A DNA stretch of 64,000 nucleotides. It comes from Dechloromonas denitrificans. Its GTDB lineage: Bacteria > Pseudomonadota > Gammaproteobacteria > Burkholderiales > Rhodocyclaceae. The stretch lies in assembly GCF_020510665.1 (NCBI RefSeq), contig NZ_CP075187.1:1322501-1386500 (forward strand), given 5' to 3'. The notes under the pieces are model-generated. The model was not told the DNA's origin and searched no databases. It was given only the letters and a program-made list of their open reading frames with translations. How positions within the stretch are numbered: the first letter of the stretch is position 1; each line of letters begins with the position of its first letter. Shown here one piece after another: positions 887 through 16,287 of the stretch. The position numbers were made by a program, and so were the translations under genes.

Positions 887-2755
887 ATGCAAGCAACCCG
901 GTTCAACCCCCGCCCGACCCTCCTCGCCGCCCTCGTGGCCGCCACCCTTTGTGCCCCGGCGATGGCCGGCAGCAAGGTGAGCTGGGAGGACATCCTGAAC
1001 GACGACAAGACGCCCGGCGACGTGCTCTCCTACGGCCTCGGCCTGAAGGCGCAGCGCCACAGCACGCTGAGCAAGGTCAATACGAAGAATGTCGAAGCCC
1101 TGGTCCCGGCCTGGAGCTTTTCCTTCGGCGGCGAAAAGCAGCGCGGCCAGGAAGGGCAGGCGCTGGTGCACGATGGCGTCATCTATGCCACCAGTTCCTA
1201 TTCGCGGATCTTCGCGATCGATGCCAAGACCGGCAAACGCCTCTGGGAATACGAGGCCCGCCTGCCCGACGACATCCGCCCGTGCTGCGACGTGGTCAAT
1301 CGCGGTCCGGCCATTTACGGCGACAAGATTTTCTTCGGCACGCTGGACGCCAGCATCGTCGCCCTCAACAAGGACACCGGCAAGGTCGTCTGGAAGAAGA
1401 AATTCGGCGACCACAAGATTGGCTACACGATGACCGGCGCGCCGTTTGTCGTGAAAGATCAGAAGAGCGGCAAGGTGCTGCTGGTGCACGGTTCGTCGGG
1501 TGACGAATTCGGGGTGGTCGGCTGGCTGTTCGCGCGCGATCCGGATACCGGCGAGGAAGTCTGGGCGCGGCCGCTGGTCGAAGGTCACATGGGCCGCCTG
1601 AACGGCAAGGACAGCGTCACCACCGGCGACGCCAAGGCGCCGAGCTGGCCGGAAGGTCCGGACGGCAAGAAGGTTGATGCCTGGAACCACGGTGGCGGTG
1701 CCCCGTGGCAGACGGCCAGCTTCGACGTCGAAACCAACACCGTGGTGATCGGGGCCGGCAACCCGGCGCCGTGGAATACCTGGAAGCGGACCAAGGAAGG
1801 CGACGATCCGCGCAACTGGGACAGCCTGTTCACCTCCGGCCAGGCCTATGTCGACGCCAATACCGGCGAACTGAAGGGCTTCTACCAGCACACGCCGAAC
1901 GATGCCTGGGACTTCTCCGGTAACAACTCGGTGGTCCTTTTCGAGTACAAGGACCCGAAGAGCGGCAAGCTGGTCAAGGCCTCGGCCCACGCCGACCGCA
2001 ACGGCTTCTTCTTCGTCACCGACCGCGAAAAGCTGGCGACCGGCGCCGGCTACCCGAACAAGCCGACGTCGCTGATCGGCGCCTGGCCGTTTGTCGATGG
2101 CATTACCTGGGCCTCCGGCTTCGACCTCAAGACCGGCCGGCCGATCGAGAAGGACAACCGGCCGCCGGCCCCCAAGCCGGGCGCCGAAAAGGGCGAATCG
2201 GTCTTCGTCTCGCCGCCTTTCCTCGGCGGTACCAACTGGCACCCGATGTCCTACAGCCCGAACACCGGCCTGTTCTACATTCCGGCCAACCACTGGGCGA
2301 TGGACTACTGGACCGAGCACCTGACCTACAAGGCCGGCTCGGCCTACCTCGGCCAGGGTTTCCGTATCAAGAAGCTGTTTGACGACCACGTTGGCATCCT
2401 GCGCGCCATCGACCCGAAGAGCGGCAAGATCGCCTGGGAGCACAAGGAGAAATTCCCGCTCTGGGCCGGCACCCTGACCACCGCCGGCGGCCTGTTGTTC
2501 ACCGGCACCTCGGACGGCTACGTCAAGGCCTTCGACGCGAAAAACGGCAAGGAACTGTGGAAATTCCAGACCGGTTCCGGCGTCGTCTCGGTGCCGATCA
2601 CCTGGGAAATGGATGGCGAGCAGTACATCGGCATTCAGTCCGGCTACGGCGGCGCCGTGCCGTTGTGGGGCGGCGATCTGGCCGACCTGACCAAGCAGGT
2701 GACGCAGGGTGGCTCGATGTGGGTCTTCAAGCTGCCGAAGATGGCCAAGCGCTAA
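887..2755 (+). CDS. PQQ-dependent alcohol dehydrogenase, calcium type (ExaA/PedE-like)
   Basis: This 622-residue periplasmic quinoprotein of the methanol/ethanol dehydrogenase family oxidises alcohols with PQQ and passes electrons to a c-type cytochrome. It has a signal peptide (cleavage near AMA-G, residue 27). Repeated beta-propeller motifs are visible, such as GKRLWEYEA and GKELWKF. The adjacent-cysteine pair of PQQ alcohol dehydrogenases is present (C133-C134 in RPCCDVVNRG), as is the catalytic Asp in WDFSG (D342). The residue two after that Asp is Ser344. In this family Ser or Ala here goes with calcium enzymes (PedE, ExaA, MxaF) and Asp with lanthanide enzymes. The gene is followed by a pentapeptide protein and a PedF-like cytochrome. 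Substrate range cannot be read from sequence. Confidence 0.93.
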   Translation: MQATRFNPRPTLLAALVAATLCAPAMAGSKVSWEDILNDDKTPGDVLSYGLGLKAQRHSTLSKVNTKNVEALVPAWSFSFGGEKQRGQEGQALVHDGVIYATSSYSRIFAIDAKTGKRLWEYEARLPDDIRPCCDVVNRGPAIYGDKIFFGTLDASIVALNKDTGKVVWKKKFGDHKIGYTMTGAPFVVKDQKSGKVLLVHGSSGDEFGVVGWLFARDPDTGEEVWARPLVEGHMGRLNGKDSVTTGDAKAPSWPEGPDGKKVDAWNHGGGAPWQTASFDVETNTVVIGAGNPAPWNTWKRTKEGDDPRNWDSLFTSGQAYVDANTGELKGFYQHTPNDAWDFSGNNSVVLFEYKDPKSGKLVKASAHADRNGFFFVTDREKLATGAGYPNKPTSLIGAWPFVDGITWASGFDLKTGRPIEKDNRPPAPKPGAEKGESVFVSPPFLGGTNWHPMSYSPNTGLFYIPANHWAMDYWTEHLTYKAGSAYLGQGFRIKKLFDDHVGILRAIDPKSGKIAWEHKEKFPLWAGTLTTAGGLLFTGTSDGYVKAFDAKNGKELWKFQTGSGVVSVPITWEMDGEQYIGIQSGYGGAVPLWGGDLADLTKQVTQGGSMWVFKLPKMAKR

Positions 2756-2882: not shown

Positions 2883-3464
2883 ATGACGCCCCGACATTTC
2901 ATTTTTTCCCTTTTTTTCCTGTCGACCGCAGCCGTCGCCGCGCCGCCGGAAAATATCGAGCCGCTGATCATCAACGGCTGCGGCATCTGGCCGCATACCC
3001 GCTGCCCCGGTGCCGATCTGCGCCACGCCAACCTGGCCGGCAAGAACCTGGCCGGCGCCGACTTCACCGGCGCCCAAATGGCCCGCGTCGATCTGCGCGG
3101 TGCCAATCTGGCCGGGGCCATTTTCGATGGGGCCGATCTGACGGCGGCTCGCCTGAACAAGGCCAGCGGCCCGACCGCCACCTTTCGCAAGGCCAGGCTG
3201 GTGGGGGCCGATCTCGAATTCGCTCGCCTGTTTCGGGCCGACTTTTCCGGGGCCGACCTCACGGCCGCCAATCTTGAAGCGGCCAAGCTCAATTTCGCCT
3301 GGTTCGCCGGGGCTCGGCTGAGCAACGCCAATCTGCAGGAAGCCAAGTTCGTCACGGTCAATCTGAAAGATGCCAATCTCGCAGGTGCCTATCGCCGCTA
3401 CACCATTTTCCCCGACGCCTTTTTCGAAGGCTGCACCGGCTGCCCGACGGAGGACTGGCAATGA
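2883..3464 (+). CDS. secreted pentapeptide-repeat protein
   Basis: This 193-residue protein has a signal peptide (FIFSLFFLSTAAVAA) followed by a long run of A(D/N)LXX pentapeptides from about residue 40 to 170 (for example GADLRHANLAGKNLAGADF), which fold as a right-handed quadrilateral beta-helix. Cysteines flank the repeat (GCGIWPHTRC near the N terminus and GCTGC at the C terminus). The ATG at 2883 is chosen because the signal peptide starts there; longer upstream reading lacks one. It overlaps the downstream cytochrome gene by 4 bp (ATGA), so the two are translationally coupled. Position between the dehydrogenase and its cytochrome suggests a periplasmic accessory role; the molecular function is unknown. 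Confidence 0.85.
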   Translation: MTPRHFIFSLFFLSTAAVAAPPENIEPLIINGCGIWPHTRCPGADLRHANLAGKNLAGADFTGAQMARVDLRGANLAGAIFDGADLTAARLNKASGPTATFRKARLVGADLEFARLFRADFSGADLTAANLEAAKLNFAWFAGARLSNANLQEAKFVTVNLKDANLAGAYRRYTIFPDAFFEGCTGCPTEDWQ

Positions 3465-3940
3465 TGCTGCGCCTTCGTTTTCGGCTTTCTCTTTCGCGCA
3501 GCCTCGGGCTGCTGGCTGGTTGCCTGGCCTTCGCGGCCGCCGCCGGTGAAGTCACCGTCGCCCCGGTGGTCGATCAATCCGGCCTGCCGCCCCTCGCCGT
3601 CGAAGTCAGGACCAATCCCTATCGGGCCAATGCGCGGGCCATCGAAGTCGGCCAATCCGCCTTCAACCAAGCCTGCGCCCGCTGCCATGGCGTCGACGCC
3701 AATCCGGCCGGCGCCCCGGCCCCCGATCTGCGCCAGCTCAACCGCTATTGCCGGCGCATCGGCGAGCCGGCAGTGCAGGCCGCCTGCCTGGCCGACAACG
3801 ACGCCTATTTCAGCAAGACGGTGGCGAACGGGAAAACCATTGTTGGCGTCATGCACATGCCGCCGTGGAAAAACGTGCTCAGCCCGGAACTGGTCTGGGC
3901 GATCCAGGCCTTTGTCGAAGCCCGGGCGGTGGCGCGCTGA
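3461..3940 (+). CDS. pedF: periplasmic cytochrome c (PedF/c550-like)
   Basis: This 159-residue protein has a signal peptide (about 27 residues) and one class I heme site, CARCHG (C72, C75, H76). Met131 or Met133 in GVMHMPPW are candidate sixth ligands. The stretch RYCRRIGEP with further cysteines resembles the cytochrome c550 PedF family that accepts electrons from PQQ alcohol dehydrogenases. The gene lies between the two quinoprotein genes and overlaps the pentapeptide gene by 4 bp, so it is the probable electron acceptor of both. The family assignment is from recognised sequence features, not a search. Confidence 0.85.
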   Translation: MMLRLRFRLSLSRSLGLLAGCLAFAAAAGEVTVAPVVDQSGLPPLAVEVRTNPYRANARAIEVGQSAFNQACARCHGVDANPAGAPAPDLRQLNRYCRRIGEPAVQAACLADNDAYFSKTVANGKTIVGVMHMPPWKNVLSPELVWAIQAFVEARAVAR

Positions 3941-4047: not shown

Positions 4048-5829
4048 TTACTTGTGCAGCTTGAACACCCAAACCGAACCGCCCTGTTCGAGGAAGTTCA
4101 CACGCTTGGCAACGTCGCCGCCCCACAGCGGAACAGCGCCGCCCCAGCCGGTCGTCACGGCGATCATCTGCTCGCCATCCTGTTCCCAGCTAACCGGCGG
4201 TGCAACGATGCCGGTACCGGTCTGGAAGGACCACAGTTCCTTGCCGGTCTTGGCATCGACGCCCTTCAGGAAACCTTCCGGGGTGCCATAGAAAATCAGG
4301 CCGCCGGCGGTGGTCAGCACGCCACCCCAAAGCGGGGCGTAGTTCTTGTTTTCCCAGACGATCTTGCCGGTCTGCGGATCCATCGCGCGCAGCACGCCGA
4401 TATGGTCTTCGTTCAGCGCCTTGATGGTGAAGCCGGCGCCGAGGTAAGCGGCGCCCTTCTTGTAGGACACCGGCTCATTCCAGATGTCCATCGACCACTC
4501 GTTGGCTGGCACGTAGAACAAGCCGGTCTGCGGGCTGTAGGCCATCTGCTGCTGGTTCTTGCCGCCGAGGAAGGACGGGGCGGAGAAGACGACCTTGCCC
4601 TTCTTGCCATCGACACCTTGCGTCGGGTCGCCCGGACGGCCTTCTTCGATGTAGTTCGGACGGCCGGTTTCGAGGTTGAAGCCGCTCGCCCAGGTGATCT
4701 TCTTGACGAAGGGGAAGGCGTTGATCAGCTTGCCGTTGGTCCGGTCGTTGACGAAGAAGAAGCCGTTGCGGTCGGCCTTGCCACCGGCCTTGATGATCTT
4801 GCCGGTCTTCGGGTCCTTGTAGTCGAAGGAGACGAATTCGTTCACCCCGTCAAAGTCCCAGCCGTCGTGCGGCGTGTTCTGGTAGTGCCAGGTGATCTTG
4901 CCGGTGTCGGCGTCGATCGCCACGGTGGACGACGAGAACAGGTTGTCGCCCGGACGCAGGTGGCTGTTCCACGGGGCCGGGTTGCCGGTGCCGGCGAAGA
5001 TCAGGTTGGTTTCCGGATCGTAGGTCGCGCCGTTCCAGGTGGCGGCGCCGCCGGTTTTCCACAGGTCGCCTTCCCAGGTGGCGTTGGTCGTGCCGGAAAT
5101 GCCGTTTTCGATGGCCTTGCCGTCGGCATCGTAGCTGTAGCCCATGTGGCCTTCGACCGTCGGACGCGTCCAGATCAGCTTGCCGGTCAGCGGGTTGCGC
5201 GCGTCGATGCGGCCGACGGCACCGAATTCACCGCCGGAGATGCCGGTGATCAGCTTGCCCTTGGCGACAATCGGCGCGGCGGTGGCGGAGTAGCCAGCGG
5301 CGTAGTCGCCGAGCTTTTCCTTCCAGACGACCTTGCCGGTGTCCTGGTTGAGGGCGACCAGCTGGGCGTCGAGCGTGGCGAAAATGACCAGGTTGCCGTA
5401 CAGGGCGGCACCGCGGTTGATCACGTCGCAGCACGGCATGATGCCGTCGGGCAGGCGGTGTTCGTACTTCCACAATTTCTTGCCGGTTTTCGCGTCGACC
5501 GCGAAAAGGCGGCTGTACGAAGCGGTGACGAACATCTTGCCGTTATGGATGACCGGCTGCGATTCCTGGCCGCGCTGCTTTTCGCCGCCGAAGGACATCG
5601 ACCAGGCCGGGACCAGATTCTTCACCGTCTTGGTGTTGATCTGGGTCGACGGCGTGAAACGCTGGCCCTGCGTGCCGAGGCCGAAGCTGACGACGTCGCC
5701 GGTGGTCTTCGCATCATTGAGGATATCGGCGTCAGTAACTTCAGCGCTGGCCGGGCTGCCGGCGAAGGCCGCTGCAATGAGCAGGGCGATGCCGAGTGTG
5801 CGCCGCTGGGGGCGGGTGTGACGATGCAT
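4048..5829 (-). CDS. PQQ-dependent alcohol dehydrogenase, lanthanide type (PedH/XoxF-like)
   Basis: This 593-residue periplasmic quinoprotein has a signal peptide (cleavage near ASA-E). It shows the propeller motifs, the PCCDVINRG adjacent-cysteine pair, and the catalytic motif WDFDG with D325 and D327. The extra Asp two residues after the catalytic Asp is the established hallmark of lanthanide-binding enzymes (XoxF, PedH). The start at 5829 has a clear AAGGAG ribosome site about 7 nt upstream and starts the signal peptide; upstream in-frame codons do not look like protein. It is convergent with the cytochrome gene and divergent from the SoxYZ-like carrier. It is clearly related to the calcium-type enzyme at 887 but not close to identical, so not a recent duplication. 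Confidence 0.93.
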
Positions 5830-6069
5830 GGATTTGTCTCCTTGGTTTATGCATTGATTCCTGCTGTACGGCAAAGGGCGTTCAGCCGCGCTGCCGTGGC
5901 ATGAAAACCGGGGGAGACCGTCCATTCCCTGAAATTTCCCCCCTGGCCGGACAGGCGATCTGCAAGCCCTGTGCCACGACCGTGCCGGCCGCTTGAATCG
6001 GCCCGCTGGCCGGCCTTTCAGGGGTATTTGATGGCGTTGTGCCGGCTTGGGCCAGCGTTCAGGCTGCCT

Positions 6070-6108
6070 GTTCAAAATGAACACAACTGCTCCAAAGTTG
6101 CGCAACCG
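6070..6108. promoter_or_regulatory. inverted repeats upstream of the sigma-54 promoter
   Basis: TGTTCA and TGAACA flank a 3-nt spacer at about 6070-6084, and the perfect palindrome GTTGCGCAAC lies at about 6099-6108. They lie about 85-120 bp upstream of a sigma-54 -24/-12 element, the usual distance for an enhancer-binding activator. No sigma-54 activator gene is in the window. Assignment as upstream activator sites is inference. Confidence 0.4.
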
Positions 6109-6190: not shown

Positions 6191-6205
6191 TGGCACGGCC
6201 TTTGC
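6191..6205 (+). promoter_or_regulatory. sigma-54 promoter of the carrier-to-regulator operon
   Basis: TGGCACG (6191-6197), four bases, then TTGC (6202-6205) match the RpoN -24/-12 consensus exactly, including spacing. The element ends 46 bp before the ATG at 6252. A second, weaker TTGGCACG with a poor -12 lies near 6157-6173. The 422-bp region between the two divergent genes (5830-6251) also holds the inverted repeats listed separately and a TGCGGTCGAC word near 6115. Confidence 0.75.
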
Positions 6206-6251
6206 GCAAGTCTTGCCCAAACAGCCCGCAGGGCGACAGGAGCGAGACACG

Positions 6252-7022
6252 ATGAAATTTCCTTTGACCATTGCCGCTATCGCGCTGGCCGCGTTGATGT
6301 CGCCGGCCGATGCCGCCGCGCTGAAAGAGAGCGGTGATCCGCTCGCTTCGGCGCGCTGGGCCGACATGCAGAAAAGCCTGCTGGGCAATGCGCCGGTACT
6401 GTTCGATCCGCGCGTCAAGGTGATCGCTCCGTCGACCGCCGAGAACCCGATGCAGGTGCCGGTGACGATCGATGCCACGGCCTTGCCCGGCGTGCAGGAA
6501 GTGCTGGTTTTTGCCGATTTCAATCCGATCGTCCAGGTGCTGCGTTTCTTCCCCGAAGCCAGTGGTGCCTACCTCGGTTTCCGCGTCAAGTTGCAACAAT
6601 CGACACCGGTGCGCGCTGCCGTGCGCACGGCGGATGGCGTCTGGCATGTCGGCGGCACCTGGGTCAATACGGTGGGCGGCGGCTGCACTGCACCGTCCGG
6701 CGCCTCGGCCTCGAAAGCCTGGCAGCAGAAACTGAATAGGGTCAGCGGCCGGCAGTGGTCGGAAGGCCCGTACAGCGGCCGCGTCCGCTTGAGCATCGTG
6801 CATCCGATGGATACCGGCTTGGTCGCTGGCACGCCGGCCTTCCACCTTGAAGAAATCGAATTGAGCGATGCCGCCGGCCAGCGCCTGATGCGCCTGCAGA
6901 CTTACGAGCCGGTCGCCGAGAACCCGGTGTTCACCCTGCATCGCGGTGCAGTCAGCGGGCCGGTTGAAGCGCGCGGGCGCGACAACAACGGCAACACCTT
7001 CAAGGCGCAGATCGCCCAATGA
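6252..7022 (+). CDS. quinoprotein dehydrogenase-associated SoxYZ-like carrier
   Basis: This 256-residue exported protein has a signal peptide (cleavage near DAAA). The N-terminal part resembles SoxY, with the carrier cysteine in GGGC (C145); the C-terminal part (from about residue 160, SGRVRLSIVHPMDTG) resembles SoxZ. So the two halves of the Sox sulfur carrier appear fused. Such fused carriers are known next to PQQ dehydrogenases, where their chemical role is not settled. The start has AGGAG 9 nt upstream. It is the first gene of a six-gene overlapping operon and overlaps the metallohydrolase by 4 bp (ATGA). Family recognition is good; the mechanism is unknown. Confidence 0.85.
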   Translation: MKFPLTIAAIALAALMSPADAAALKESGDPLASARWADMQKSLLGNAPVLFDPRVKVIAPSTAENPMQVPVTIDATALPGVQEVLVFADFNPIVQVLRFFPEASGAYLGFRVKLQQSTPVRAAVRTADGVWHVGGTWVNTVGGGCTAPSGASASKAWQQKLNRVSGRQWSEGPYSGRVRLSIVHPMDTGLVAGTPAFHLEEIELSDAAGQRLMRLQTYEPVAENPVFTLHRGAVSGPVEARGRDNNGNTFKAQIAQ

Positions 7023-7957
7023 AGCGCCTGATCGCCTGCGCTGCGGCGCTCTTCGCCATCTCGTCCGAGGCCGCCGATTTCGACTACGGCCTGCAGGCCC
7101 AGCCGGTTGCTGAGCAGGTTTACGTCTTCATCGGACGCAACGAGGACTTTTCCACGGTCAACGGCGGAAATATCGTCAATACCGCTTTCATCGCCGGCTC
7201 GGGCGGCATCGTCGTGATCGACAGCGGCCCGTCGCTGCGCTACGGCGAGCAGATGCGCCGCGCGATTGCCCGAATCAGCGAGCAGCCGGTGGCGCTGGTC
7301 ATCAACACCCACCACCATCCCGACCATTTTCTCGGCAACCAGGCCTTTGCCGGCACAGCCATCGCCGCGCTGCCGGCGACCATCGAGGGCATTTCGGCCG
7401 AGGGCAACGCCTTTGCCGAAAACCTGTTCCGGATGAGCGGCGACTGGATGAAAGGCACCGAGGTACTCGTGCCGAATCGTGCACTGTCCGCCGGCACCAG
7501 CGAAATCGCCGGTCGCCGCCTGCGCCTGATCGGACTGGACGGTCACACCGGGGCCGATCTCGCGGTCTACGATGAAAAAAGCGGCGTTTTGTTTGCCGGC
7601 GATCTGGTTTTCAACGGCCGCGCCGCGACCACGCCGCACGCTGATATTACCCACTGGCTGGCCGCGCTCGACCGGCTGGAGGAGATCACCCGCGAACCCG
7701 GTTTCAGCGTGCTGGTCCCCGGTCACGGCGCAGTGACGCGCGACGCCGCGCCGATTCGCCAGACCCGCGCCTGGCTACGCTGGCTGCAAGCCGCGATGCA
7801 GACCGCAGCGCGTGACGGGCTGGACATGAACGACGTGCTGGCCCTGCCGCTGCCGGCCGAGTTCGCCGATCTGCCGGTGGCGGCCAGCGAATACCGCCGC
7901 TCGGTTGGCCACCTCTTTCCGGCGGCGGAGCAGGATGCGCTCGGGGCAGGGCGCTGA
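7019..7957 (+). CDS. quinoprotein relay zinc metallohydrolase (metallo-beta-lactamase fold)
   Basis: This 312-residue protein has an N-terminal signal peptide (about 18 residues) and the metallo-beta-lactamase metal motif HHHPDH (H98-H103 within NTHHHPDHFLGN). Downstream metal ligands appear around GLDGHTGADLAVYD and FAGDLVFNG, with VPGHG near residue 240. Proteins of this type co-occur with the SoxYZ-like carrier and PQQ dehydrogenases. By analogy with SoxYZ-associated hydrolases it may process a group on the carrier cysteine; that is inference. It overlaps the carrier gene by 4 bp and is followed after 1 bp by tonB. Confidence 0.85.
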   Translation: MKRLIACAAALFAISSEAADFDYGLQAQPVAEQVYVFIGRNEDFSTVNGGNIVNTAFIAGSGGIVVIDSGPSLRYGEQMRRAIARISEQPVALVINTHHHPDHFLGNQAFAGTAIAALPATIEGISAEGNAFAENLFRMSGDWMKGTEVLVPNRALSAGTSEIAGRRLRLIGLDGHTGADLAVYDEKSGVLFAGDLVFNGRAATTPHADITHWLAALDRLEEITREPGFSVLVPGHGAVTRDAAPIRQTRAWLRWLQAAMQTAARDGLDMNDVLALPLPAEFADLPVAASEYRRSVGHLFPAAEQDALGAGR

Positions 7958-7958
7958 G

Positions 7959-8702
7959 ATGGCGATGGCGATCAACTTTCCGCCGGAACTGCGCCTGCCG
8001 GTTGTGCCGGCTGGGTTGAGTCGCCGATTTGTCGCCTTGCTCGGCTTGTCGCTGCTCTTCCATGCCGGGCTGTTCGGACTGGTCAGCTGGCAGCGCCATA
8101 GCGTTCCACCCGTCTTGCCGACGATCATCGCCGTGCTGCGCCCGGTCAGCACGCCAGAATCCGGACCCAGCGCCCCGGCTCAAGCCCCGGCGGCGGCTGT
8201 GCTCCCCAGGAAGGTCCGGCAGGTGCCCGTCCATACGCCTGAAAAATCCAGCGTACGGACAATTGCGCCGGCCGGGCCGTCCACCGTTGCGACGCCCGCC
8301 GCACCGAGCGAGGCCGCGCGTCTGCCGGCAGTGACCGTGGCGGCGCCGAGCGAAGCGGTGGCCAGCCGCGAAGTCGTCGTCGCGCCGGCCAAGCCGCAGA
8401 GCGAGGTGCTCGATGCCTATCGCCGTCGCCTCGGTGAGCTGCTGGCCCGCCATCAGGAATACCCGCGCGTTGCCGCGCTGCGCGGCTGGGAAGGTGAAGT
8501 CCGGCTGCGCCTGAAAGTCGCGCGCAAGGGAAATCTGCTCGGTGTGCAGGTCGACCGCAGCAGCGGTTTCGAGGTGCTCGACCAGCACGCGCTGGCCATG
8601 CTCGAAGCGCTGGCCGGCTTGCCGCCGCTGCCGGAAGCGTTGGAAGCCAACGAAATTCAAGTCGTCGTCCCGATCAACTACAAACTCAAAAAAACAACAT
8701 GA
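7959..8702 (+). CDS. TonB-family energy transducer, dedicated
   Basis: This 247-residue protein has one N-terminal membrane helix (about residues 21-44, RRFVALLGLSLLFHAGLFGL), a Pro/Ala-rich periplasmic spacer, and a C-terminal TonB domain (from about residue 155: YRRRLGELLARHQEYPRVA, then GEVRLRLKVARKG and SSGFEVLDQHALAML). The ATG at 7959 lies one base after the metallohydrolase stop; a second in-frame ATG is two codons later. It overlaps the TonB-dependent receptor by 4 bp (8699-8702). No ExbB/ExbD genes are beside it, so it presumably uses a shared motor. Co-translation with the receptor suggests it energises that receptor. Confidence 0.87.
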   Translation: MAMAINFPPELRLPVVPAGLSRRFVALLGLSLLFHAGLFGLVSWQRHSVPPVLPTIIAVLRPVSTPESGPSAPAQAPAAAVLPRKVRQVPVHTPEKSSVRTIAPAGPSTVATPAAPSEAARLPAVTVAAPSEAVASREVVVAPAKPQSEVLDAYRRRLGELLARHQEYPRVAALRGWEGEVRLRLKVARKGNLLGVQVDRSSGFEVLDQHALAMLEALAGLPPLPEALEANEIQVVVPINYKLKKTT

Positions 8703-11005
8703 GACAACATCACAAGCCCACTTTGCTGGCACTCGCACTGAGCGCCGCTTTTGGTCATGCTGGCGCGGTCGACCGCGAAATCCAGGCCGAAACCGTTGAA
8801 GTCGTCGGCAGTACGCCGCTCTCCGGGGTCGGCGTGCCGCGCCTGCACCTGCCGGCCAATGTCCAGTCGATCAGCGCCAGCCAGATGGAGGAGCAGGAGA
8901 GCCTGAACCTGCCCGAGGCGATGTTGCGCCAGTTGCCCAGCGTCAATCTCAACGAGATTCAGGGCAACCCTTTCCAGGCCGATCTGAATTACCGCGGTTT
9001 CACCGCCTCGCCGCTGCTCGGCACGGCGCAGGGCCTGTCGGTCTATCTCGACGGCGTGCGCATCAACGAACCGTTCGGTGACACGGTCAACTGGGATTTG
9101 CTGCCGCATTCGGCGATTGCCGGGATGGATCTGATGCCCGGTTCCAACCCGGTTTTCGGTTTGAACACGCTGGGCGGTGCGCTGGCGATCCGCACCAAGA
9201 GCGGCTTCAGTCATCCGGGCAGCAAACTCGAACTGTCCGGCGGCAGCTTCGGGCGGCGCAATGTCGAGATCGAGCATGGCGGCAACGCCGGCTCGCTCGG
9301 CTGGTATGTCGCGGCTGACTGGTTCAAGGAAGACGGCTGGCGCGATTACTCGAAATCCGAGGCCAAGCAGTTTTTCGGCAAGCTGTCGCATAAAAGCGCC
9401 GCCGGCGAGGCCGATCTGACGCTGAGCCGGGCGGTGACCAAGATGACCGGCAACGGACTGCTGCCGCTCTCGATGTTCGCCGAGCGGCGCGACCAGATTT
9501 TCACCCACCCCGACCAGACGCGTAACGACATGACCCAACTGGCGCTCAGCGGTCGTCTGTGGCTGAACGACAGCCAGAGCCTGAGCGGCAACGTCTATCA
9601 CCGGCGGAGCACGACGCGGACGCTGAACGGCGACGTCAATGACGAGTTCGAAGACGGTGTCTTCGACGGCGTGTCAAACCAGGAGTCGGGGGCCAACAAC
9701 CGGACGCGCACCCGGCAGCAGGGTAGTGGCCTGGGCGTGCAGTGGAATCTGAACAGCGCCCGGCATCAACTGACCCTCGGCACTTCGTTCGACTACGCCC
9801 GGATGAACTTCCGCCAGACCCAGCAACTCGGCCTCATCGACGCCACGCGCGGCATTGCCGATCCCGCCAGCGAACAGGAGCAGAACCGGCTGCGCGGCAC
9901 GACGCGCACGGCCAGCCTGTTTGCCACCGACACCTATGCGCTGCTGCCCAATCTGCATCTGACCGGCTCGGCCCGTTACAACATGAGCCGTGTGACGACC
10001 TTCGACGAACTCGACCGCAGCGCGCCGAATCTTGATGGCGACCACAGCTACCGCAAGCTCAATCCGGCGCTCGGCCTGAGCTGGCAGATCGTGCCGGCGC
10101 TCAATGCCTACGCCGGTTTCAGCCAGGGCAACCGCGTTCCGACGCCGATCGAACTGGGTTGTGCCGACCCGGCCAATCCCTGCACCTTGCCCAACTCGAT
10201 GGCGGCCGACCCTTATCTCAAGCAGGTCGTCACGCAAACCGTCGAAGCCGGTCTGCGCGGCAAGCTGGTCGGCGATATTGGCTGGAATGCCGGGGTCTAC
10301 CGCAGCGTTTCGAGCGACGACATCATCTTTGTCGGCACCTCGACCAGCGCCGGTTACTTCACCAATTTCGGCAAGACGCAACGTCAGGGTCTGGAACTGG
10401 GTTTGAACGGTCGCCAGAATCGTGTCGACTGGTTCGCCAACTACAGCTATCTGCACGCCACCTTCCAGTCGGGCGCTTGCCTGCTGGCTGAAAACAACAG
10501 TACGCGCGGCACCGCGCCGGAATGCACGGCGGGCGGACAGGATGATGAAATCAGAGTGCGCAAGGGCGACCGTCTGCCCGGCCTGCCGACGCACAGCGCC
10601 AAGCTCGGCCTGAACTGGCGAGCCACCGACTGGCTGCGTCTCGGCGGCGATGTCCAGGCCTTCTCCGGTCAGTACGCCCGGGGCAATGAAAACAACCAGC
10701 ACCAGTCCGGCACCTTTACCGATGCGCTGGGCAATACCCGGACTTTCGACGGACCGGGCAAGACGGCCGGCTACGCCATTCTCAACCTGAACGGCGAAGC
10801 CCGGCTGGGCGGCGGCTGGCAGATGTTTGCCAAGGTCAACAACGTCTTCGACAAGCGTTACGCGACGGCTGCCGCGCTGGCTGAAAACCCCTTCGCCGGC
10901 GGCAGCTTCCAGATCGATTCGGGCAACTGGCGGCGCGAAACTTTCGTCGCGCCGGGCGCGCCGCGTGCCGCCTGGATCGGCCTGCGCTACGCCTTCGGCA
11001 ACTGA
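8699..11005 (+). CDS. TonB-dependent outer membrane receptor in quinoprotein operon
   Basis: This 768-residue protein has a signal peptide (cleavage near HAGA). It has a plug domain (about residues 45-165; LPANVQSISASQMEEQ, LYRGF-like NYRGFTASP, LDGVRINEPFGDTVNW) and a 22-strand-type barrel ending in a typical terminal strand (WIGLRYAFGN). The first mature residues (VDREIQAETVEVVGS) could be a TonB box region. It is embedded between its own tonB and a two-component system in a quinoprotein operon. The ligand is unknown. A lanthanide chelate, or another cofactor such as PQQ, is inferred from context only. It is distinct from the PqqU-like receptor at 13748. Confidence 0.87.
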   Translation: MRQHHKPTLLALALSAAFGHAGAVDREIQAETVEVVGSTPLSGVGVPRLHLPANVQSISASQMEEQESLNLPEAMLRQLPSVNLNEIQGNPFQADLNYRGFTASPLLGTAQGLSVYLDGVRINEPFGDTVNWDLLPHSAIAGMDLMPGSNPVFGLNTLGGALAIRTKSGFSHPGSKLELSGGSFGRRNVEIEHGGNAGSLGWYVAADWFKEDGWRDYSKSEAKQFFGKLSHKSAAGEADLTLSRAVTKMTGNGLLPLSMFAERRDQIFTHPDQTRNDMTQLALSGRLWLNDSQSLSGNVYHRRSTTRTLNGDVNDEFEDGVFDGVSNQESGANNRTRTRQQGSGLGVQWNLNSARHQLTLGTSFDYARMNFRQTQQLGLIDATRGIADPASEQEQNRLRGTTRTASLFATDTYALLPNLHLTGSARYNMSRVTTFDELDRSAPNLDGDHSYRKLNPALGLSWQIVPALNAYAGFSQGNRVPTPIELGCADPANPCTLPNSMAADPYLKQVVTQTVEAGLRGKLVGDIGWNAGVYRSVSSDDIIFVGTSTSAGYFTNFGKTQRQGLELGLNGRQNRVDWFANYSYLHATFQSGACLLAENNSTRGTAPECTAGGQDDEIRVRKGDRLPGLPTHSAKLGLNWRATDWLRLGGDVQAFSGQYARGNENNQHQSGTFTDALGNTRTFDGPGKTAGYAILNLNGEARLGGGWQMFAKVNNVFDKRYATAAALAENPFAGGSFQIDSGNWRRETFVAPGAPRAAWIGLRYAFGN

Positions 11006-12366
11006 TGATGCGCCGGCCCAGCCTTCACACCCGCGTCGGCCTGGTCTTTACCGGGCTGGCGGCCAGCCTGCTGCTGGTCCTCGCCGCCTTGTGGTCGCAC
11101 GGCGCGCGCAATGCGACGCATGAAGAGGTTGAGGCGGCCAGCCGGGTGGCCGAACAATGGCTGCGGGCGACGGTCGGTGAAATGCGTCAGTTGCCGCCGG
11201 ACGTACTGCCCGAACGCGTCCTCGGCGTGGTCAAGCCGCTCGGCCGGATTCGTGCCAACGAACTGGAAGTGATCGCCGCCGACGGGCGCCTGCTTTACCG
11301 CTCGCCAGCCCCGACCTACAAGGCTGGGCGCCAGGTGCCGGGCTGGTTTGCCGGGCTGCTGACGCCCGAGTTCGAAGCGCATCGCGTTGCGCTGGGCGAG
11401 CTGCAACTGGTGCTTTATCCCGATGCCTCGCGTTCGGTGATCGATGCCTGGGACGATCTGCAGCGCATGGCCGCCTGGGCGGTGCTGCTGCTCGTTGGCT
11501 TGTTCCTGATCAGCCGCTACGCCCTCGACCGCGCTCTGCGCCCGCTGGCCCAGGTCATGCACGCGCTGGAAAGGACGGGGTCGGGGCGTTTCGATACCCG
11601 CCTGCCGGTTTTTGCCACGCCGGAGCTGGGCCGCCTGTCGCGTGCCTTCAACGGCATGGCCGACCGCCTGAATGCTGCGGTCAACGACAATGTACGGCTG
11701 GAAACCGAACAGGAAGTGGCTGAGCAGATGCAGGGCCGCCTGCAGCAGGAGCGCCAGCTGATTGCCCGCGAGTTGCACGATGAACTGGCCCAGTGCATTA
11801 CCGCTGTCCGCGCACTGGCCGGCGCCATCGTGCAGCGCAGCAGCGATCAGCCGGGACTCAAGCTGCCGGCCGAAAGCATTGTTGCCGTGACCGGCGAGAT
11901 GCAGCAGGGCGTCAGGAATATTCTCCAGCGCCTGCGGCCGGCCTCCGCCGCCGGGCTTGAAGCCGGCCTTGAACGGCTGCTGGTCGCCTGGCGCATGCAG
12001 CATGAAAACATCGAACTGCGCGCAACGATCGAGCTTGAACACGCCCGGTTGAGCGATGCCGTGGCCCAAACCCTGATCCGTATCGTCCAGGAAGGGCTGA
12101 CCAACATTGCCCGCCATGCTGCGGCCAGCCAGGTCGAGCTGCGGCTCGGCGAAGTTGCCGGACAGATCAGGCTGTCGCTGAGCGACAACGGCCGCGGTTG
12201 CGATGGCCGGCGTTCACCGCAAGCCGGTTGCGGCTTCGGACTGGCCGGCATGGCCGAGCGCATTGCCGAACTCGGCGGCGTGCTGACGATGGCACGGCCG
12301 GCGGCTGGCGGCTTTTGTCTGCAGGTTTGCCTGCCCCATCACGAAATCATGGAGGAAGCATCATGA
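11005..12366 (+). CDS. sensor histidine kinase (HAMP, HisKA_3, HATPase)
   Basis: This 453-residue membrane kinase has TM1 at about residues 9-30 and a periplasmic sensor of about 120 residues. TM2 starts at M155 (MAAWAVLLLVGLFLISRY), followed by HAMP to about residue 225. The dimerisation box is ARELHDELAQ with phospho-acceptor H258. The ATP-binding region has DNGRGCDG and GFGLAGMAERI. The start overlaps the receptor stop by one base (TGATG), and its own stop overlaps the regulator start by 4 bp. By position it is comparable to PedS2, the kinase that reads lanthanides and controls pedE/pedH in Pseudomonas putida; that equivalence is inference. It is similar in layout to the partial kinase at the left edge. 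Confidence 0.9.
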   Translation: MMRRPSLHTRVGLVFTGLAASLLLVLAALWSHGARNATHEEVEAASRVAEQWLRATVGEMRQLPPDVLPERVLGVVKPLGRIRANELEVIAADGRLLYRSPAPTYKAGRQVPGWFAGLLTPEFEAHRVALGELQLVLYPDASRSVIDAWDDLQRMAAWAVLLLVGLFLISRYALDRALRPLAQVMHALERTGSGRFDTRLPVFATPELGRLSRAFNGMADRLNAAVNDNVRLETEQEVAEQMQGRLQQERQLIARELHDELAQCITAVRALAGAIVQRSSDQPGLKLPAESIVAVTGEMQQGVRNILQRLRPASAAGLEAGLERLLVAWRMQHENIELRATIELEHARLSDAVAQTLIRIVQEGLTNIARHAAASQVELRLGEVAGQIRLSLSDNGRGCDGRRSPQAGCGFGLAGMAERIAELGGVLTMARPAAGGFCLQVCLPHHEIMEEAS

Positions 12367-13010
12367 ATTCCAATCTGCGCGGCATTCGCGTCATGCTGGC
12401 CGACGATCACGCCATCGTCCGCCTCGGTTTTCGCTTGCTGCTCGAAGGGGCGGGGGCCGAAGTGGTCGGTGAGGCGGAAACCGGCGAGAGCGCCATCCGG
12501 CTCTATGCCGAGTCCACGCCCGATCTGGTGGTGATGGATGTGTCGATGCCCGGCATCGGCGGGTTGGCTGCGCTCGAACGGCTGCTCGTCTGGGCGCCGA
12601 AAGCGCGGGTGCTGATGCTTTCGGCGCACCACGACGACATCGTTCCCGTCCGTGCCCTGCGTCTTGGCGCAAGTGGCTACCTGTGCAAGCGTGCCGCGCC
12701 GGAAGAATTCCTGCGGGCGGTCGGGCAGGTTGCGGCCGGGCGACGCTACATTGATCCCGAGCTGGCGCAGAACGTTGCACTGGCCCAGCTTTCCGGTTCA
12801 GCCAATCCGGTCGATAGCCTGACCGAAAAGGAACTGGCCGTTTTCCTCAAACTGGCCGAAGGGCGCTCGGTCAACGACGTGGCAAGCGATTTTTGCCTTA
12901 GTCCGAGCACCGTCGGGACGCATCTTTACCATATCAAGCAAAAACTCAATTTGCAGAACGCCGCCGAACTGACGCTGGTCGCCGTGCGCAACGGGTTGAT
13001 CGAAGCCTGA
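12363..13010 (+). CDS. LuxR/NarL-family response regulator
   Basis: This 215-residue protein has an N-terminal receiver (acidic pair in MLADDHA, phospho-acceptor D59 in VVMDVSMPG, later LSAHHD and a conserved Lys in YLCKRA). Its C-terminal LuxR helix-turn-helix contains LTEKELAVFLKLAEGRS and LSPSTVGTHLYHIKQKLN. Translation is coupled to the kinase by a 4-bp overlap. It is the last gene of the operon and the best candidate to bind the palindromes at 743-779. Similar regulators (ExaE/AgmR, PedR2) control quinoprotein ADH genes. The target assignment is inference. Confidence 0.92.
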   Translation: MNSNLRGIRVMLADDHAIVRLGFRLLLEGAGAEVVGEAETGESAIRLYAESTPDLVVMDVSMPGIGGLAALERLLVWAPKARVLMLSAHHDDIVPVRALRLGASGYLCKRAAPEEFLRAVGQVAAGRRYIDPELAQNVALAQLSGSANPVDSLTEKELAVFLKLAEGRSVNDVASDFCLSPSTVGTHLYHIKQKLNLQNAAELTLVAVRNGLIEA

Positions 13011-13045: not shown

Positions 13046-13522
13046 TTATGTCGGGTCTTGCAGGGCTAAGGCCAGGTATTGCGTGCCGGGCACCGGGTTG
13101 AAGCTGACTGGTTCGGCGACCGAAAAACCGAGCGATTCGTAAAGCTTCTGCGCCGCCACGAACTCCGGTAAAACGTCGAGGCAGATGCGCCGATAACCGG
13201 CCAGCCTGGCTTCGGCGATCAGCTGCTCGACGAGTTTACGGCCGAGTTGTTGGCCTCTCGCCGATGGGCGGACATAAACCCGTTTCATTTCGCAGGTCGA
13301 CGCATCAACCCGGCGCAGGGCGGCACAGCCGAGAACGGCATCCCCTTGGCGGGCCAGGAGAAGACGCCCCTCCGGCGCCGCATACTTGCCCGGCAGCCCT
13401 GCAAACTCCGTCTCGTAATCCTGAAAATCGAGGCTGACAGTCGGACTTTTGACGTACTCGCGAAAAATCGAAATAACGTCGTCGTGTTCATCCGGGAAGC
13501 GGGCTTGTCGAATGGTGAGCAT
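13046..13522 (-). CDS. GNAT-family N-acetyltransferase
   Basis: This 158-residue cytosolic protein has the GNAT core: a beta strand LLLARQGDAVLGCAAL, then MKRVYVRPSARGQQLGRKLV (the acetyl-CoA pyrophosphate loop, R/Q-x-x-G-x-G/A type), then ICLDVLPEFVAAQKLYESLGF near the C terminus. The acceptor substrate is unknown. It is convergent with the regulator operon (35 bp between stops) and is not obviously linked to the quinoprotein system. Confidence 0.88.
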   Translation of the reverse strand: MLTIRQARFPDEHDDVISIFREYVKSPTVSLDFQDYETEFAGLPGKYAAPEGRLLLARQGDAVLGCAALRRVDASTCEMKRVYVRPSARGQQLGRKLVEQLIAEARLAGYRRICLDVLPEFVAAQKLYESLGFSVAEPVSFNPVPGTQYLALALQDPT

Positions 13523-13647
13523 GATGGGCGGGGGGCGTAGAGAGGCTGGTTGCAGTCGTGTGAGGGGGCTTTCAGGCGCGGTGACGTCGATCCATGAGCA
13601 AGCCGCATTATCGCCGAGCGGTTGATGATTCTGCTTGTCACCGGCAT

Positions 13648-13664
13648 CTCATGATTTTCATGAG
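13648..13664. promoter_or_regulatory. palindrome in the pqqU upstream region
   Basis: CTCATGA and TCATGAG arms flank a 3-nt spacer. The perfect 7-bp dyad is about 85 bp upstream of the receptor start, in the 225-bp gap after the acetyltransferase gene. It is a plausible operator; the cognate regulator is unknown. Confidence 0.4.
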
Positions 13665-13747
13665 GTGGCTTTGGCGAATGTGATGGCGCGGTGCAGGCGC
13701 GGGCAGCCGATGATGTGACCTATAACTACATTGACGAGACACCTGCC

Positions 13748-15877
13748 ATGAAACACCGTCTGAGCTGCATTGCCGCCGCATTAGCCCCGATTTTTTCGCT
13801 CGGTACAGCCTGGGCTGCCGATGTGACGCTTGATCCCGTGGCTGTGACCGGTAGCCGCATCGAACACAATACGTTCGACCTGTCTGCTGCGGTCGACGTC
13901 GTCGATGCGGCCAGAATCGGTGCCGATCAGCCGAAGGTCAATGTCTCCGAGGCACTGGCCGGGGTGCCTGGCATTTCGGTGCAAAACCGCCAGAACTACG
14001 CCCAGGATCTGCAGATTTCCTCACGCGGCTTTGGCGCACGTTCGGCCTTTGGCGTACGTGGCATTCGGTTGATGGCCGATGGCATTCCGGCGTCGATGCC
14101 GGATGGCCAGGGACAGGCGGCGACTTTCAATCTTGACCGGGCTGAGCGTATCGAAGTGATGCGCGGCCCGATGTCGTCGATCTACGGCAATCACGCCGGC
14201 GGGGTGATCCAGATGTTTACTGCCGACGGCAAGGGCGCGCCGAGCATTGAAGGCGGCCTGGTGACCGGCAGCTACGGCATGTGGAAGGCCGATCTATCGG
14301 CCCAGGGTGAAGCGGCCGGGATGGGCTATGTGCTCGATACCTCGCGCTTTGCAACCGATGGCTACCGCGATCACAGCAGCGCCCAGCGCGACCAGAGTTC
14401 GGCCAAGCTGACCTTCGCGCCGGATGCCGATAGCCGCCTGATGCTTGTTGCCAATGCCTTTACCCAAACGGCGGATGACCCGCTCGGCGCGAGCTGGTCG
14501 CGCTTCAGCAGCAATCCGCGCAGCGTTGATCCGGTGGCCGAGCAATACAACACGCGCAAGAGCATCGACCACATGCAGGGCGGCGTGAGCTATGAACGCC
14601 GCTTTGGCGACCAAAGCGTGCAGGTTTCGGCCTATGCCGGCCAGCGCACGGTGATTCAGTACCAGTCGATCCCGCGTTCGGTTCAGCTGATTACCGGCGC
14701 GACGCCGGCCAACTCGGCGATTCGTCGTCATTCCGGCGGGGTGATTGATTTTGATCGTGATTTTTCCGGCGTTTCCGGTCGCTGGACAGGCAAGTACGAT
14801 CTCGCCGGCGGCAAGCTGACGACCACCGTCGGTGTCGAATACGAGCAATCCGTCGATCAGCGGCGCGGCTACGAGAACTACATCGGCACAACGCTCGGCC
14901 TGGCCGGCACCCTGCGCCGCAAGGAAGAAGACCGGGTGGCCAGTTTCGACCAGTACGCCCAGGCCGAATGGCAGGGCGAACGCTGGAACTTCACCGGCGG
15001 CCTGCGCCACAGCCGGGTCGCCTTCAAGGTCAAGGACAGCTACATCACGACCGGCAATGGCGATGACAGCGGCAGTGTCAGCTACGAAAAAACCACGCCG
15101 ATGCTCGCCGCGCTCTACCGCCTGACGCCAACGGTCAATCTCTACGCCAGCGCTTCCCGTGGCTTCGAAGCGCCGACCATGAACGAACTGTTCTACTCCG
15201 GCCCGAACAGCAGCTTCAGCTTCGACCTCAAGGCAGCGACCAGCACGCATTTCGAAACCGGCCTCAAGGCGCTGGTCGGCGACGACAGCCGGGTGGATGT
15301 CGCGTTGTTCCAGATCAGGACGAGCGACGAACTGGTCGTCGCCTCCAGCTCAGGCGGCCGAACCAGCTACCGCAATGCCGGCCAGACCCTGCGCCGAGGC
15401 ATCGAAGCGGCGGTCGACAGCCGCTGGGGCCTCGGTTTCACCAGCCGTCTGGCCTACACACTGCTCGATGCGCGCTACGACGAAGCATTCACCACCACGG
15501 TGCTCGGCGCAGCCACGCCGGTCAATGCCGGCAGCCGTTTGCCCGGCGTCGCCGCCCAGACGCTGTTCGGCGAACTGGCCTGGCGACATGCCCCGAGCGG
15601 CTTCCACATCGCCGCTGAAGGCATCGCACGCAGCAAGGTTTACGTCGAAGACAGCAACAGCCAGCAAGCCGCCCCGGCCTACACCATCGCCAACCTGCGC
15701 ATGGGCGTCGATCAGCAGGTCGGGCCGCTCAAAATGCGCGCCTTCGCCCGTCTCGACAACATTTTCGACCGCCAGTACGTTGGCTCGGTCGTCGTCGGCG
15801 ACGGCAACGGCCGATTCTACGAATCAGCCCCCGGCCGCAACTGGCTGCTCGGGGTGAATGCCAAATACGCGTTTTGA
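13748..15877 (+). CDS. pqqU: TonB-dependent PQQ receptor, PqqU (YncD)-like
   Basis: This 709-residue outer membrane receptor has a signal peptide (cleavage near AWA-A), a plug and a barrel. The plug carries blocks I recognise from Escherichia coli YncD/PqqU: VQNRQNYAQDLQISSRGFG, FGVRGIRLMADGIPASMPDG and PMSSIYGNHAGG. Barrel blocks RGFEAPTMNEL, SSSGGRTSYRNAGQT and the C-terminal FDRQYVGSVVVGDGNGRFYE also match. PqqU imports PQQ as a cofactor for apo-dehydrogenases. It has its own upstream region and a strong terminator, so it is a separate transcript. With no pqqABCDE genes nearby, it suggests at least partial reliance on external PQQ, which must be checked genome-wide. Confidence 0.85.
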   Translation: MKHRLSCIAAALAPIFSLGTAWAADVTLDPVAVTGSRIEHNTFDLSAAVDVVDAARIGADQPKVNVSEALAGVPGISVQNRQNYAQDLQISSRGFGARSAFGVRGIRLMADGIPASMPDGQGQAATFNLDRAERIEVMRGPMSSIYGNHAGGVIQMFTADGKGAPSIEGGLVTGSYGMWKADLSAQGEAAGMGYVLDTSRFATDGYRDHSSAQRDQSSAKLTFAPDADSRLMLVANAFTQTADDPLGASWSRFSSNPRSVDPVAEQYNTRKSIDHMQGGVSYERRFGDQSVQVSAYAGQRTVIQYQSIPRSVQLITGATPANSAIRRHSGGVIDFDRDFSGVSGRWTGKYDLAGGKLTTTVGVEYEQSVDQRRGYENYIGTTLGLAGTLRRKEEDRVASFDQYAQAEWQGERWNFTGGLRHSRVAFKVKDSYITTGNGDDSGSVSYEKTTPMLAALYRLTPTVNLYASASRGFEAPTMNELFYSGPNSSFSFDLKAATSTHFETGLKALVGDDSRVDVALFQIRTSDELVVASSSGGRTSYRNAGQTLRRGIEAAVDSRWGLGFTSRLAYTLLDARYDEAFTTTVLGAATPVNAGSRLPGVAAQTLFGELAWRHAPSGFHIAAEGIARSKVYVEDSNSQQAAPAYTIANLRMGVDQQVGPLKMRAFARLDNIFDRQYVGSVVVGDGNGRFYESAPGRNWLLGVNAKYAF

Positions 15878-15898
15878 GGATTGCTGGCTGAAATGAAG

Positions 15899-15921
15899 AA
15901 CCCGCCGGTGGCGGGTTTTTT
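15899..15921 (+). terminator. pqqU terminator
   Basis: A 6-bp GC stem (15901-15906 with 15910-15915), extended by two A-T pairs and with a 3-nt loop, is followed by a T-run. It is a standard intrinsic terminator 20 bp after the receptor stop. Confidence 0.85.
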
Positions 15922-15986
15922 ACTTGGGCGGTCGCTTCAAAATGGCCAGAAACAACATGCGTATGTGCCACATTCTGCGGCACCTA

Positions 15987-16196
15987 TTACGGCGCAATCC
16001 TTGGGGTAGGGATCATGCCCAGTGCCATTTTTTCCTGGTTCGTTGGCTTGGCTTTCCGACAAGGCGATGGATGCATTTCTGCACCTGATAAAACGCCGTG
16101 GCAAAGCATGCAGAAGCCGCCACACACCAGCGCGAAGAACAAACCGCCGAGCAAACTCAGAACACGAGCAATGCCCCGTGTGGACGCGAAATGCAC
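15987..16196 (-). CDS. possible small membrane protein at the left end of the cassette array
   Basis: A GTG at 16196 with AAGGG about 7 nt upstream opens a 69-residue frame with one hydrophobic, cysteine-containing segment (LLGGLFFALVCGGFCMLCHG) and a basic tail. It lies in lower-GC DNA left of attC site C. A different overlapping frame (stop 15937) looks less protein-like. Coding status is uncertain; it may be a decayed cassette gene. Apart from this and the IS remnant at 16288, I see nothing clear between 15922 and 16394. Confidence 0.3.
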   Translation of the reverse strand: MHFASTRGIARVLSLLGGLFFALVCGGFCMLCHGVLSGAEMHPSPCRKAKPTNQEKMALGMIPTPRIAP

Positions 16197-16287
16197 ATGC
16201 GAACCCTTTTTTCGGGGAAATGTGGCGTTGGTATGAACCAATCGCTTGAGCTGCGGCGTAACGGAGCATGGTGTTAGCTGGCGTTTG

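Follow-up and report, generated by a model that had tools for sequence, protein, structure and literature searches.

How might a bacterium supply a lanthanide-type alcohol dehydrogenase with its metal, and how might it tie expression of the enzyme to that supply? This question is raised by a six-gene operon of Dechloromonas denitrificans that lies in a stretch of 64,000 nucleotides (hereafter the window; assembly GCF_020510665.1, contig NZ_CP075187.1, positions 1,322,501 to 1,386,500). The operon encodes, in order, a SoxYZ-like carrier, a zinc metallohydrolase, a TonB protein, a TonB-dependent receptor, a sensor kinase, and a LuxR-type response regulator. It is divergent from the gene for a PedH-like alcohol dehydrogenase of the lanthanide type, an enzyme that uses pyrroloquinoline quinone (PQQ). 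We favor the view, with fair but by no means full confidence, that the operon serves this dehydrogenase as a unit for acquiring lanthanide and responding to it.

In the mechanism that we propose, a lanthanide ion (Ln3+), probably chelated, would cross the outer membrane through the operon receptor, which would be powered by the operon TonB. The imported metal would then pass to the PedH-like dehydrogenase in the periplasm. The kinase and regulator would report the state of the cofactor, with the loaded enzyme or Ln3+ in the periplasm as the most likely signal, and the pair would drive the divergent promoter shared by pedH and the operon. A PqqU-like receptor encoded behind the operon would supply PQQ, which the host seemingly cannot make. 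The carrier and metallohydrolase are presumed to have a role in the same unit.

The preliminary description of this DNA had proposed a run of six genes with very short overlaps and a single gap, and the coordinates bear this out at every junction: an overlap of 4 bp, a gap of 1 bp, and then overlaps of 4, 1, and 4 bp. It had placed the start of the run at 6191, but that position falls in the leader, and the first good start of the carrier gene is the ATG at 6252, with AGGAG ahead of it. The kinase gene offers an alternative ATG at 11008 besides its start at 11005. We predict a single transcript across the six genes. The host genome, 100% complete, consists of one contig of 3,457,400 bases. It encodes five matches to the TonB C-terminal domain, the operon TonB among them. 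Judging from its position, this TonB is likely used by the receptor here; other members of the receptor family do without one.

Receptor family and co-occurrence with lanthanide-type enzymes

The operon receptor looks like a member of the LutH family, judging from its homology to a receptor that is encoded close to lanmodulin. This homologue, carried by a plasmid of Methylobacterium nodulans, is 33% identical over 91% of the query (E = 3e-107). The gene order there is receptor, response regulator, and lanmodulin, which places lanmodulin one gene away. The lanmodulin has four EF-hands with DPDNDGTLD-type loops, and its best PDB match is 6mi5 (E = 5e-38). When the M. nodulans receptor was searched back against the host genome, it found the operon receptor (183.2 and 177.2 bits), and the next match, at 33, was the PqqU-like gene. 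We consider it likely that the operon receptor imports lanthanide. The lanmodulin gene itself (13287-13691 of locus L150, plasmid pMNOD02) is annotated only as an “EF-hand protein”.

The enzyme encoded on the other side of the promoter has the residues of its type. Aligned to 6zcv, it retains both aspartates, and the second of them (Asp323/Asp325) and Glu199 are present as ligands (numbering from the part of PMC11845868 that gives it).

To assess how regularly the two proteins occur together, we used 150 genomes drawn evenly across the family and scored at most seven candidate receptors in each, so some receptors may have been missed. An operon-type receptor was found in 48 genomes. The WD[FY]DGxxN motif is present in 42 of these genomes, compared with 9 of the remaining 102 (Fisher p = 7e-22, a value that overstates independence because the family genomes are related). 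The operon receptor thus shows the co-occurrence with WDxDG dehydrogenases that is typical of LutH. Receptor and motif are separated by 15 kb or less in 29 of the 42 genomes, and within the same distance of the receptor lie PqqU (20/44), the calcium-type motif (16/23), and PqqC (2/30).

More distant members of the family also have quinoprotein neighbors. In Sphingobium and Novosphingobium these are a WDFDG dehydrogenase, pedF, a PQQ beta-propeller gene, the relay hydrolase, and the carrier. The Variovorax homologue has a WDFDG enzyme and a high-potential iron-sulfur protein gene upstream, with ABC-transporter, PQQ beta-propeller, and pqqCDE genes downstream. Family receptors lie near PQQ_ABC (PedA1A2BC/LutAEF-like) genes in two loci (L055 and L056). 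PQQ_ABC_bind scores above its cut-off in 52 of 398 phylum genomes, and 5 of the 20 PQQ_ABC regions that were fetched contain a family receptor (G260, G184, G366, G490, and G476).

Some other settings of the family were recorded. In Ideonella (L152, 9839-13036), the receptor is flanked by a kinase/regulator pair and an annotated nickel transporter, and the downstream genes are annotated as methanobactin-related; the ligand of that receptor may differ. In Methylophilaceae and related bacteria (L084-L087, L091-L093, L095, and L097) the receptor sits in a constant neighborhood, and the gene after it belongs to a cluster represented in L092 by a sigma-54-type regulator. Finally, in a single-contig genome that is 99% complete (L175, G148:C1:877500-897400), a LutH-type receptor adjoins PqqU with neither a WDxDG nor a WDFSG motif, and a PQQ-dependent alcohol dehydrogenase-like gene (39%) is nearby.

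Gene order, promoter box, and the sensor pair

Conservation of the operon was assessed in two samples: 80 named loci, which are the best 80 of 584, and 40 regions from 39 of the 48 receptor-bearing family genomes. Counts were taken from tblastn searches with the window proteins because neighbor clustering included spurious reading frames. The same gene order behind a divergent WDxDG dehydrogenase recurs in loci titled Azonexus, Dechloromonas, and other Rhodocyclales. Among the 80 loci, nine have all six genes in order, 13 have TonB, receptor, kinase, and regulator, and 21 have the receptor followed by the kinase and regulator. The nine are titled Azonexus, Dechloromonas, Azonexaceae, Rhodocyclaceae, or, in one case, Betaproteobacteria. 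A kinase/regulator pair is close to the receptor in 47 of the 80 loci, compared with 25 of 130 random flank positions, a small set drawn from the same loci. In three loci (L050, L052, and L057), the four-gene core is preserved along with the divergent enzyme, and the carrier and hydrolase are absent. A NosR-like gene (14436-16565; 524.9 bits, below cut-off) lies directly 3' of the regulator in L050, and genes of the same cluster are also close by in L051, L052, and L057.

The preliminary description had let its case hang on linkage in other genomes, and linkage is indeed kept within the family. All six genes are present in 7 of the 40 regions, the window included, and four regions lack the carrier and hydrolase while keeping TonB, receptor, kinase, and regulator (G053, G104, G106, and G142; G104 and L052 seem to represent a single contig). 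Elsewhere, one region retains the kinase/regulator pair alone, one retains the hydrolase alone, and in 20 not one of the five partners is in place. In locus L160 of the same genus (G147:C1:3003500-3023400), the carrier, hydrolase, TonB, and receptor genes are followed by PqqU, and there is no sensor pair and no PqqC.

The divergent promoter contains a conserved box. Of 37 divergent promoter regions, 23 contain TGCTCCAAAG on one strand with no more than one mismatch, at 21 distinct sites. This count is inflated by relatedness, and some genomes, as well as the window (also present as L157), are represented twice among the regions. The arms of the box match at a mean of 4.2 of 7 positions, compared with 1.9 at random positions, and two distinct copies (L049 and L088) form the perfect inverted repeat CTGCTCCAAAGTGGAGCAG. 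The sites in L161 and L195 are unlike the others. The 13-base core has one match in the window, at 6088, and none besides at up to two mismatches, which is weak evidence of specificity given that 1.68 would be expected by chance. We regard the box as a candidate target of a dimeric regulator controlling both pedH and the operon, although the box could belong to another regulator.

What the kinase perceives is less clear than what the receptor may carry. The kinase is 96% identical to that of Dechloromonas sp. TW-R-39-2. Its AlphaFold model (mean predicted local distance difference test score, 81.3; predicted template modeling score, 0.44) shows two long N-terminal helices with a small domain of mixed alpha/beta structure between them. 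The periplasmic part, about residues 31-150, received no Pfam name at E values up to 10, and Foldseek with the model gave mostly kinase cores among the best 50 of 614 matches, with no identity for the alpha/beta domain. We suspected a LapD/MoxY-type domain, which could not be confirmed. In an alignment of 35 sequences, invariant N-terminal residues include E40, E41, R47, G80, R81, R83, Y105, K106, G108, and R109, followed by P139, D140, S142, R143, D147, W149, and D150.

Two of the 35 sequences come from PqqU operons that lack LutH (L064 and L067), and thus a similar periplasmic sequence accompanies a different receptor. TonB, kinase, and regulator are joined to PqqU, not LutH, in L064, G066, and G121, and the kinase and regulator are joined to PqqU in L067 and G113. 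The order in G098 is carrier, hydrolase, TonB, kinase, regulator, and PqqU, with the LutH gene elsewhere. The matches beside PqqU in G066, G098, G113, and G121 come from tblastn only. Related kinase/regulator genes with PqqU were also noted at 15406-17412 of L064, at 18920-20913 of L067, and in L171 and L168, together with TonB in L064, L171, and L168.

Because of these pairings, the signal may not be a lanthanide. Import could proceed as we propose, and the kinase could respond instead to PQQ or to an alcohol or aldehyde substrate. This alternative is a serious one, to which we give somewhat less than an even chance. Lanthanide could already be sensed by a separate kinase/regulator pair, which lies divergent from the PedE-like gene, at the PedS2/PedR2 position; this pair is 31% (kinase part) and 39% (regulator) identical to the operon pair, which does not occupy that position beside pedE and pedD. 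Set against this alternative, the operon pair in the window and its close relatives lies directly 3' of LutH and beside the lanthanide-type enzyme, and the box described above, for what its uniqueness is worth, falls within the promoter between pedH and the operon. The ability of TonB and the sensor pair to work with either receptor speaks for sensing of the cofactor's state, and not of a single imported substrate. Sensing of lanthanide or of the holo-enzyme, as opposed to alcohol or PQQ, is therefore our guess, at a little better than even odds. The preliminary description had the module both import and sense a lanthanide chelate or another cofactor; the import half gains from LutH homology and lanmodulin synteny, whereas the sensing half is weakened by the association of the pair with PqqU in relatives.

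A broader objection is that the six genes form a lineage-specific neighborhood without a joint function, as the low counts for the complete set (9/80 and 7/40) would allow. We think this unlikely. The order of receptor, kinase, and regulator persists where TonB, or the carrier and hydrolase, have been lost; it is found in 17 of 40 regions in total and is kept down to 44% receptor identity (G106). Furthermore, three genomes of another class (G184, G260, and G366) cluster a family receptor, kinase, regulator, PQQ_ABC genes, hydrolase, and carrier.

A number of observations nevertheless weigh against a lanthanide unit of the kind that we propose. First, the LutH assignment was made through the lanmodulin-linked M. 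nodulans homologue and not with the AM1 LutH sequence. Second, the association has exceptions. The WDxDG motif was not found in 6 of the 48 receptor-bearing genomes (in G095, a contig end cuts the enzyme gene), and the receptor was not found in 9 of the 51 WDxDG genomes, six of which have a PQQ_ABC ATPase above cut-off. A match to a PQQ-dependent alcohol dehydrogenase lies within 10 kb in only 25 of the 80 loci, the Methylocalor, Ideonella, and Caballeronia homologues have no such quinoprotein neighbors within that distance, and 15 of the 20 PQQ_ABC regions contain no family receptor. Third, the unit itself is dissociable. TonB alone is missing in 6 of the 40 regions (G026, G060, G086, G110, G115, and G145), and the kinase/regulator pair alone is missing in one, from the same genus (G147). 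These losses, along with those of the carrier and hydrolase, mean that “complete” and “private TonB”, as the module had been characterized, were too strong. Fourth, a Lut/Ped-type ABC transporter, the route by which lanthanides act in Pseudomonas putida, was not found in the host genome (PQQ_ABC_ATP, best 187.8 bits, cut-off 302.25; PQQ_ABC_bind, none). This absence also fits a lanthanide that is retained in the periplasm, where the sensor looks.

Supply of PQQ and the ligand of the operon receptor

A search of the complete host genome gave no match to PqqC and none above cut-off to PqqE (best, 80 bits); PqqA, PqqB, and PqqD were not searched. Across the 150 family genomes, PqqC is above cut-off in 36 and PqqE in 38, including two of the three same-genus relatives sampled. 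Fourteen family genomes have a motif of PQQ-dependent alcohol dehydrogenases with neither PqqC nor PqqE above cut-off. Twelve of these have a PqqU match, and the remaining two (G089 and G095) are draft genomes in which PqqC or PqqE is matched in part. For these reasons, the host most likely imports PQQ.

The probable route is a separate receptor, PqqU-like and encoded downstream of the operon, which the preliminary description did not include. Its match to NF041535 falls short of the equivalog cut-off of 1200, and its best PDB matches score about 527 bits. PqqU is defined in the relevant part of PMC12124388 by an aromatic residue at Y99 together with R304 and R365. Mapped by hand, the downstream receptor has F/R/R at the equivalent positions and K at the K274 equivalent, whereas the operon receptor has L/S/F. 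In an alignment, F/R/R is found in all nine PqqU rows (the window's included), and the signature is found in none of 26 LutH-family rows.

With a LutH-type receptor, a neighboring PqqU-like receptor, and neither PqqC nor PqqE above cut-off, the locus has the appearance of an island for scavenging the lanthanide as well as the PQQ half of the Ln-PQQ cofactor. A bolder version, which we hold only tentatively and think rather doubtful as a whole, is a self-contained island in which the lanthanide-PQQ enzyme would be assembled wholly from imports, LutH and PqqU would share the one dedicated TonB, and the kinase and regulator would be a lanthanide- or holo-enzyme-responsive activator of pedH.

Whether the operon receptor instead imports a ferric siderophore or another metal chelate, with its position beside pedH being incidental, was assessed from its relatives. 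Its top NCBIfam match is a generic TonB-siderophore model (128.4 bits, below the cut-off of 223.5; the PqqU model gives 97.6), and some homologues, as noted, lack a quinoprotein neighbor. However, the co-occurrence and linkage with WDxDG enzymes are strong, lanmodulin synteny points elsewhere, and the family is far from solved siderophore receptors. A PDB search with the single sequence gave no matches, and a profile search placed PqqU (132.8 bits) well ahead of a haem receptor (57.9), BtuB (about 43), and ferric enterobactin receptors (about 40). We therefore set a siderophore receptor aside and judge this alternative improbable. The preliminary description had allowed that siderophore-type closest relatives would count against it, and the relatives are instead LutH and then, among structures, PqqU.

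That the operon receptor carries PQQ, or a PQQ-metal complex, and not lanthanide is very unlikely and was likewise set aside, since the downstream receptor is PqqU-like and the signature separates the two, and since PqqC is present in 30 of the 48 receptor-bearing genomes, even though the host looks PQQ-auxotrophic, PqqU is the nearest solved structure, and the sensor pair adjoins PqqU in some relatives. The LutH-type family forms its own clade (support 93/99) in a tree that held just two other receptors, both long-branched.

The surroundings of the proposed lanthanide unit (Table 1) are a ped/exa-type alcohol oxidation locus. On its left side, the second kinase/regulator pair faces the PedE-like gene; this pair and a gene for an ExaC aldehyde dehydrogenase (951.6 bits, cut-off 900) lie mostly beyond the window edge. 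To the left, genes for a substrate-binding-like protein, a large hybrid kinase, and an exported protein without an NCBIfam match adjoin that pair (3889-8612 of L197). On the right, a GNAT-like gene separates the operon from the PqqU-like receptor gene, downstream of which is an IS1182-family transposase (17453-18979).

Table 1. Features of the operon and its surroundings, in window positions
Feature	Coordinates	Strand	Supporting match
SoxYZ-like carrier, quinoprotein dehydrogenase-associated	6252..7022	+	TIGR04557, 214.9 bits (cut-off 140)
Quinoprotein relay system zinc metallohydrolase 1	7019..7957	+	TIGR04558, 422.5 bits (cut-off 300)
Operon TonB	7959..8702	+	TonB C-terminus, 63.8 bits (cut-off 27.1)
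LutH-family TonB-dependent receptor, probable lanthanide(-chelate) importer	8699..11005	+	Plug plus barrel
Sensor kinase	11005..12366	+	HAMP, HisKA_3, HATPase
LuxR-type response regulator	12363..13010	+	Response regulator, GerE
Conserved promoter box CTGCTCCAAAGTTGCGCAA, candidate regulator site in divergent promoter	6087..6105	+	
PedH-like PQQ alcohol dehydrogenase, lanthanide type (WDFDG)	4048..5850	-	Best PDB match 6zcv, 863.5 bits
PqqU-like receptor, probable PQQ importer	13745..15877	+	NF041535, 659.8 bits; PDB 6v81, 9c4o
ExaA/PedE-like PQQ ethanol dehydrogenase, calcium type (WDFSG)	887..2755	+	Best PDB match 1flg, 996.9 bits
Pentapeptide-repeat protein, PedD position	2883..3464	+	Family calls; PedD position as given in part of PMC12997753
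Cytochrome c, PedF/ExaB-like	3461..3940	+	TIGR04494, 108.7 bits (below cut-off 122)

Relation to known systems

In the open-licence literature searched, we recognized no description of a gene run that joins a LutH-type receptor to TonB and a kinase/regulator pair, and none of a PQQ-auxotrophic lanthanide-enzyme locus in this group. Passages from the sources available to us indicate that LutH-like receptors occur across methanotroph lineages (PMC12482762), that Bradyrhizobium has weaker LutH similarity (PMC12628762), and that methylotrophy functions are said not to be encoded in the Rhodocyclales metagenome-assembled genomes of one study (PMC7589939). Where P. putida, a non-methylotroph, is treated, an excerpt of PMC12997753 states that it lacks a LutH homologue and describes outer-membrane lanthanide transport as unresolved, and an excerpt of PMC6115532 describes its pedH activator as unknown. 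The locus provides a candidate for each of these two functions. In addition, its lanthanide-type enzyme occurs in a genome that gives no indication of PqqC or PqqE, so that both cofactors would come from others.

The closest precedent for the receptor is the lut cluster of Methylorubrum extorquens AM1, in which lutH (META1p1785) and lanM (META1p1786) are neighbors, and in which lutH mutants form no lanthanum deposits and leave more lanthanum in the medium, although the cells can acclimate (PMC7391723, in part). The receptor family (through the lanmodulin-linked relative) and the tie to lanthanide-dependent dehydrogenases are shared with that cluster. In contrast, the receptor gene described here forms a single run with those for TonB, kinase, regulator, carrier, and hydrolase, the genome has no LutAEF/PedABC-type ABC transporter, and the enzyme is of the ethanol type.

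The surrounding genes most resemble the ped cluster of P. putida KT2440, as far as the consulted parts of PMC12997753 and PMC6115532 describe it. Shared are the PedE-like and PedH-like enzymes, the PedD pentapeptide protein, the PedF-like cytochrome, the SoxYZ-like carrier and SoxH-like hydrolase (both above the membership cut-offs of their families), and a kinase/regulator pair adjoining pedE. The window differs in having an extra receptor, a TonB, and a second kinase/regulator pair, and PedA1A2BC and PqqC/PqqE were not found in the host.

Two further comparisons concern single components. PqqU (YncD; PMC12124388, in part) shares its signature with the downstream receptor, and the host seemingly scavenges PQQ as Escherichia coli does, whereas the operon receptor lacks the signature and belongs to a separate clade. 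MxaY, the lanthanide-switch kinase described in a passage of PMC6115532, is likened here by description: both proteins are membrane histidine kinases near quinoprotein regulation, but the pair in the window sits 3' of a receptor in one gene run. LutH, PedH/PedE, the relay genes, and PqqU are therefore already known. The preliminary description had suggested an undescribed system; this no longer applies to the receptor family, which is already known as LutH, but it does apply to the arrangement, in which receptor, TonB, and sensor are joined beside PqqU.

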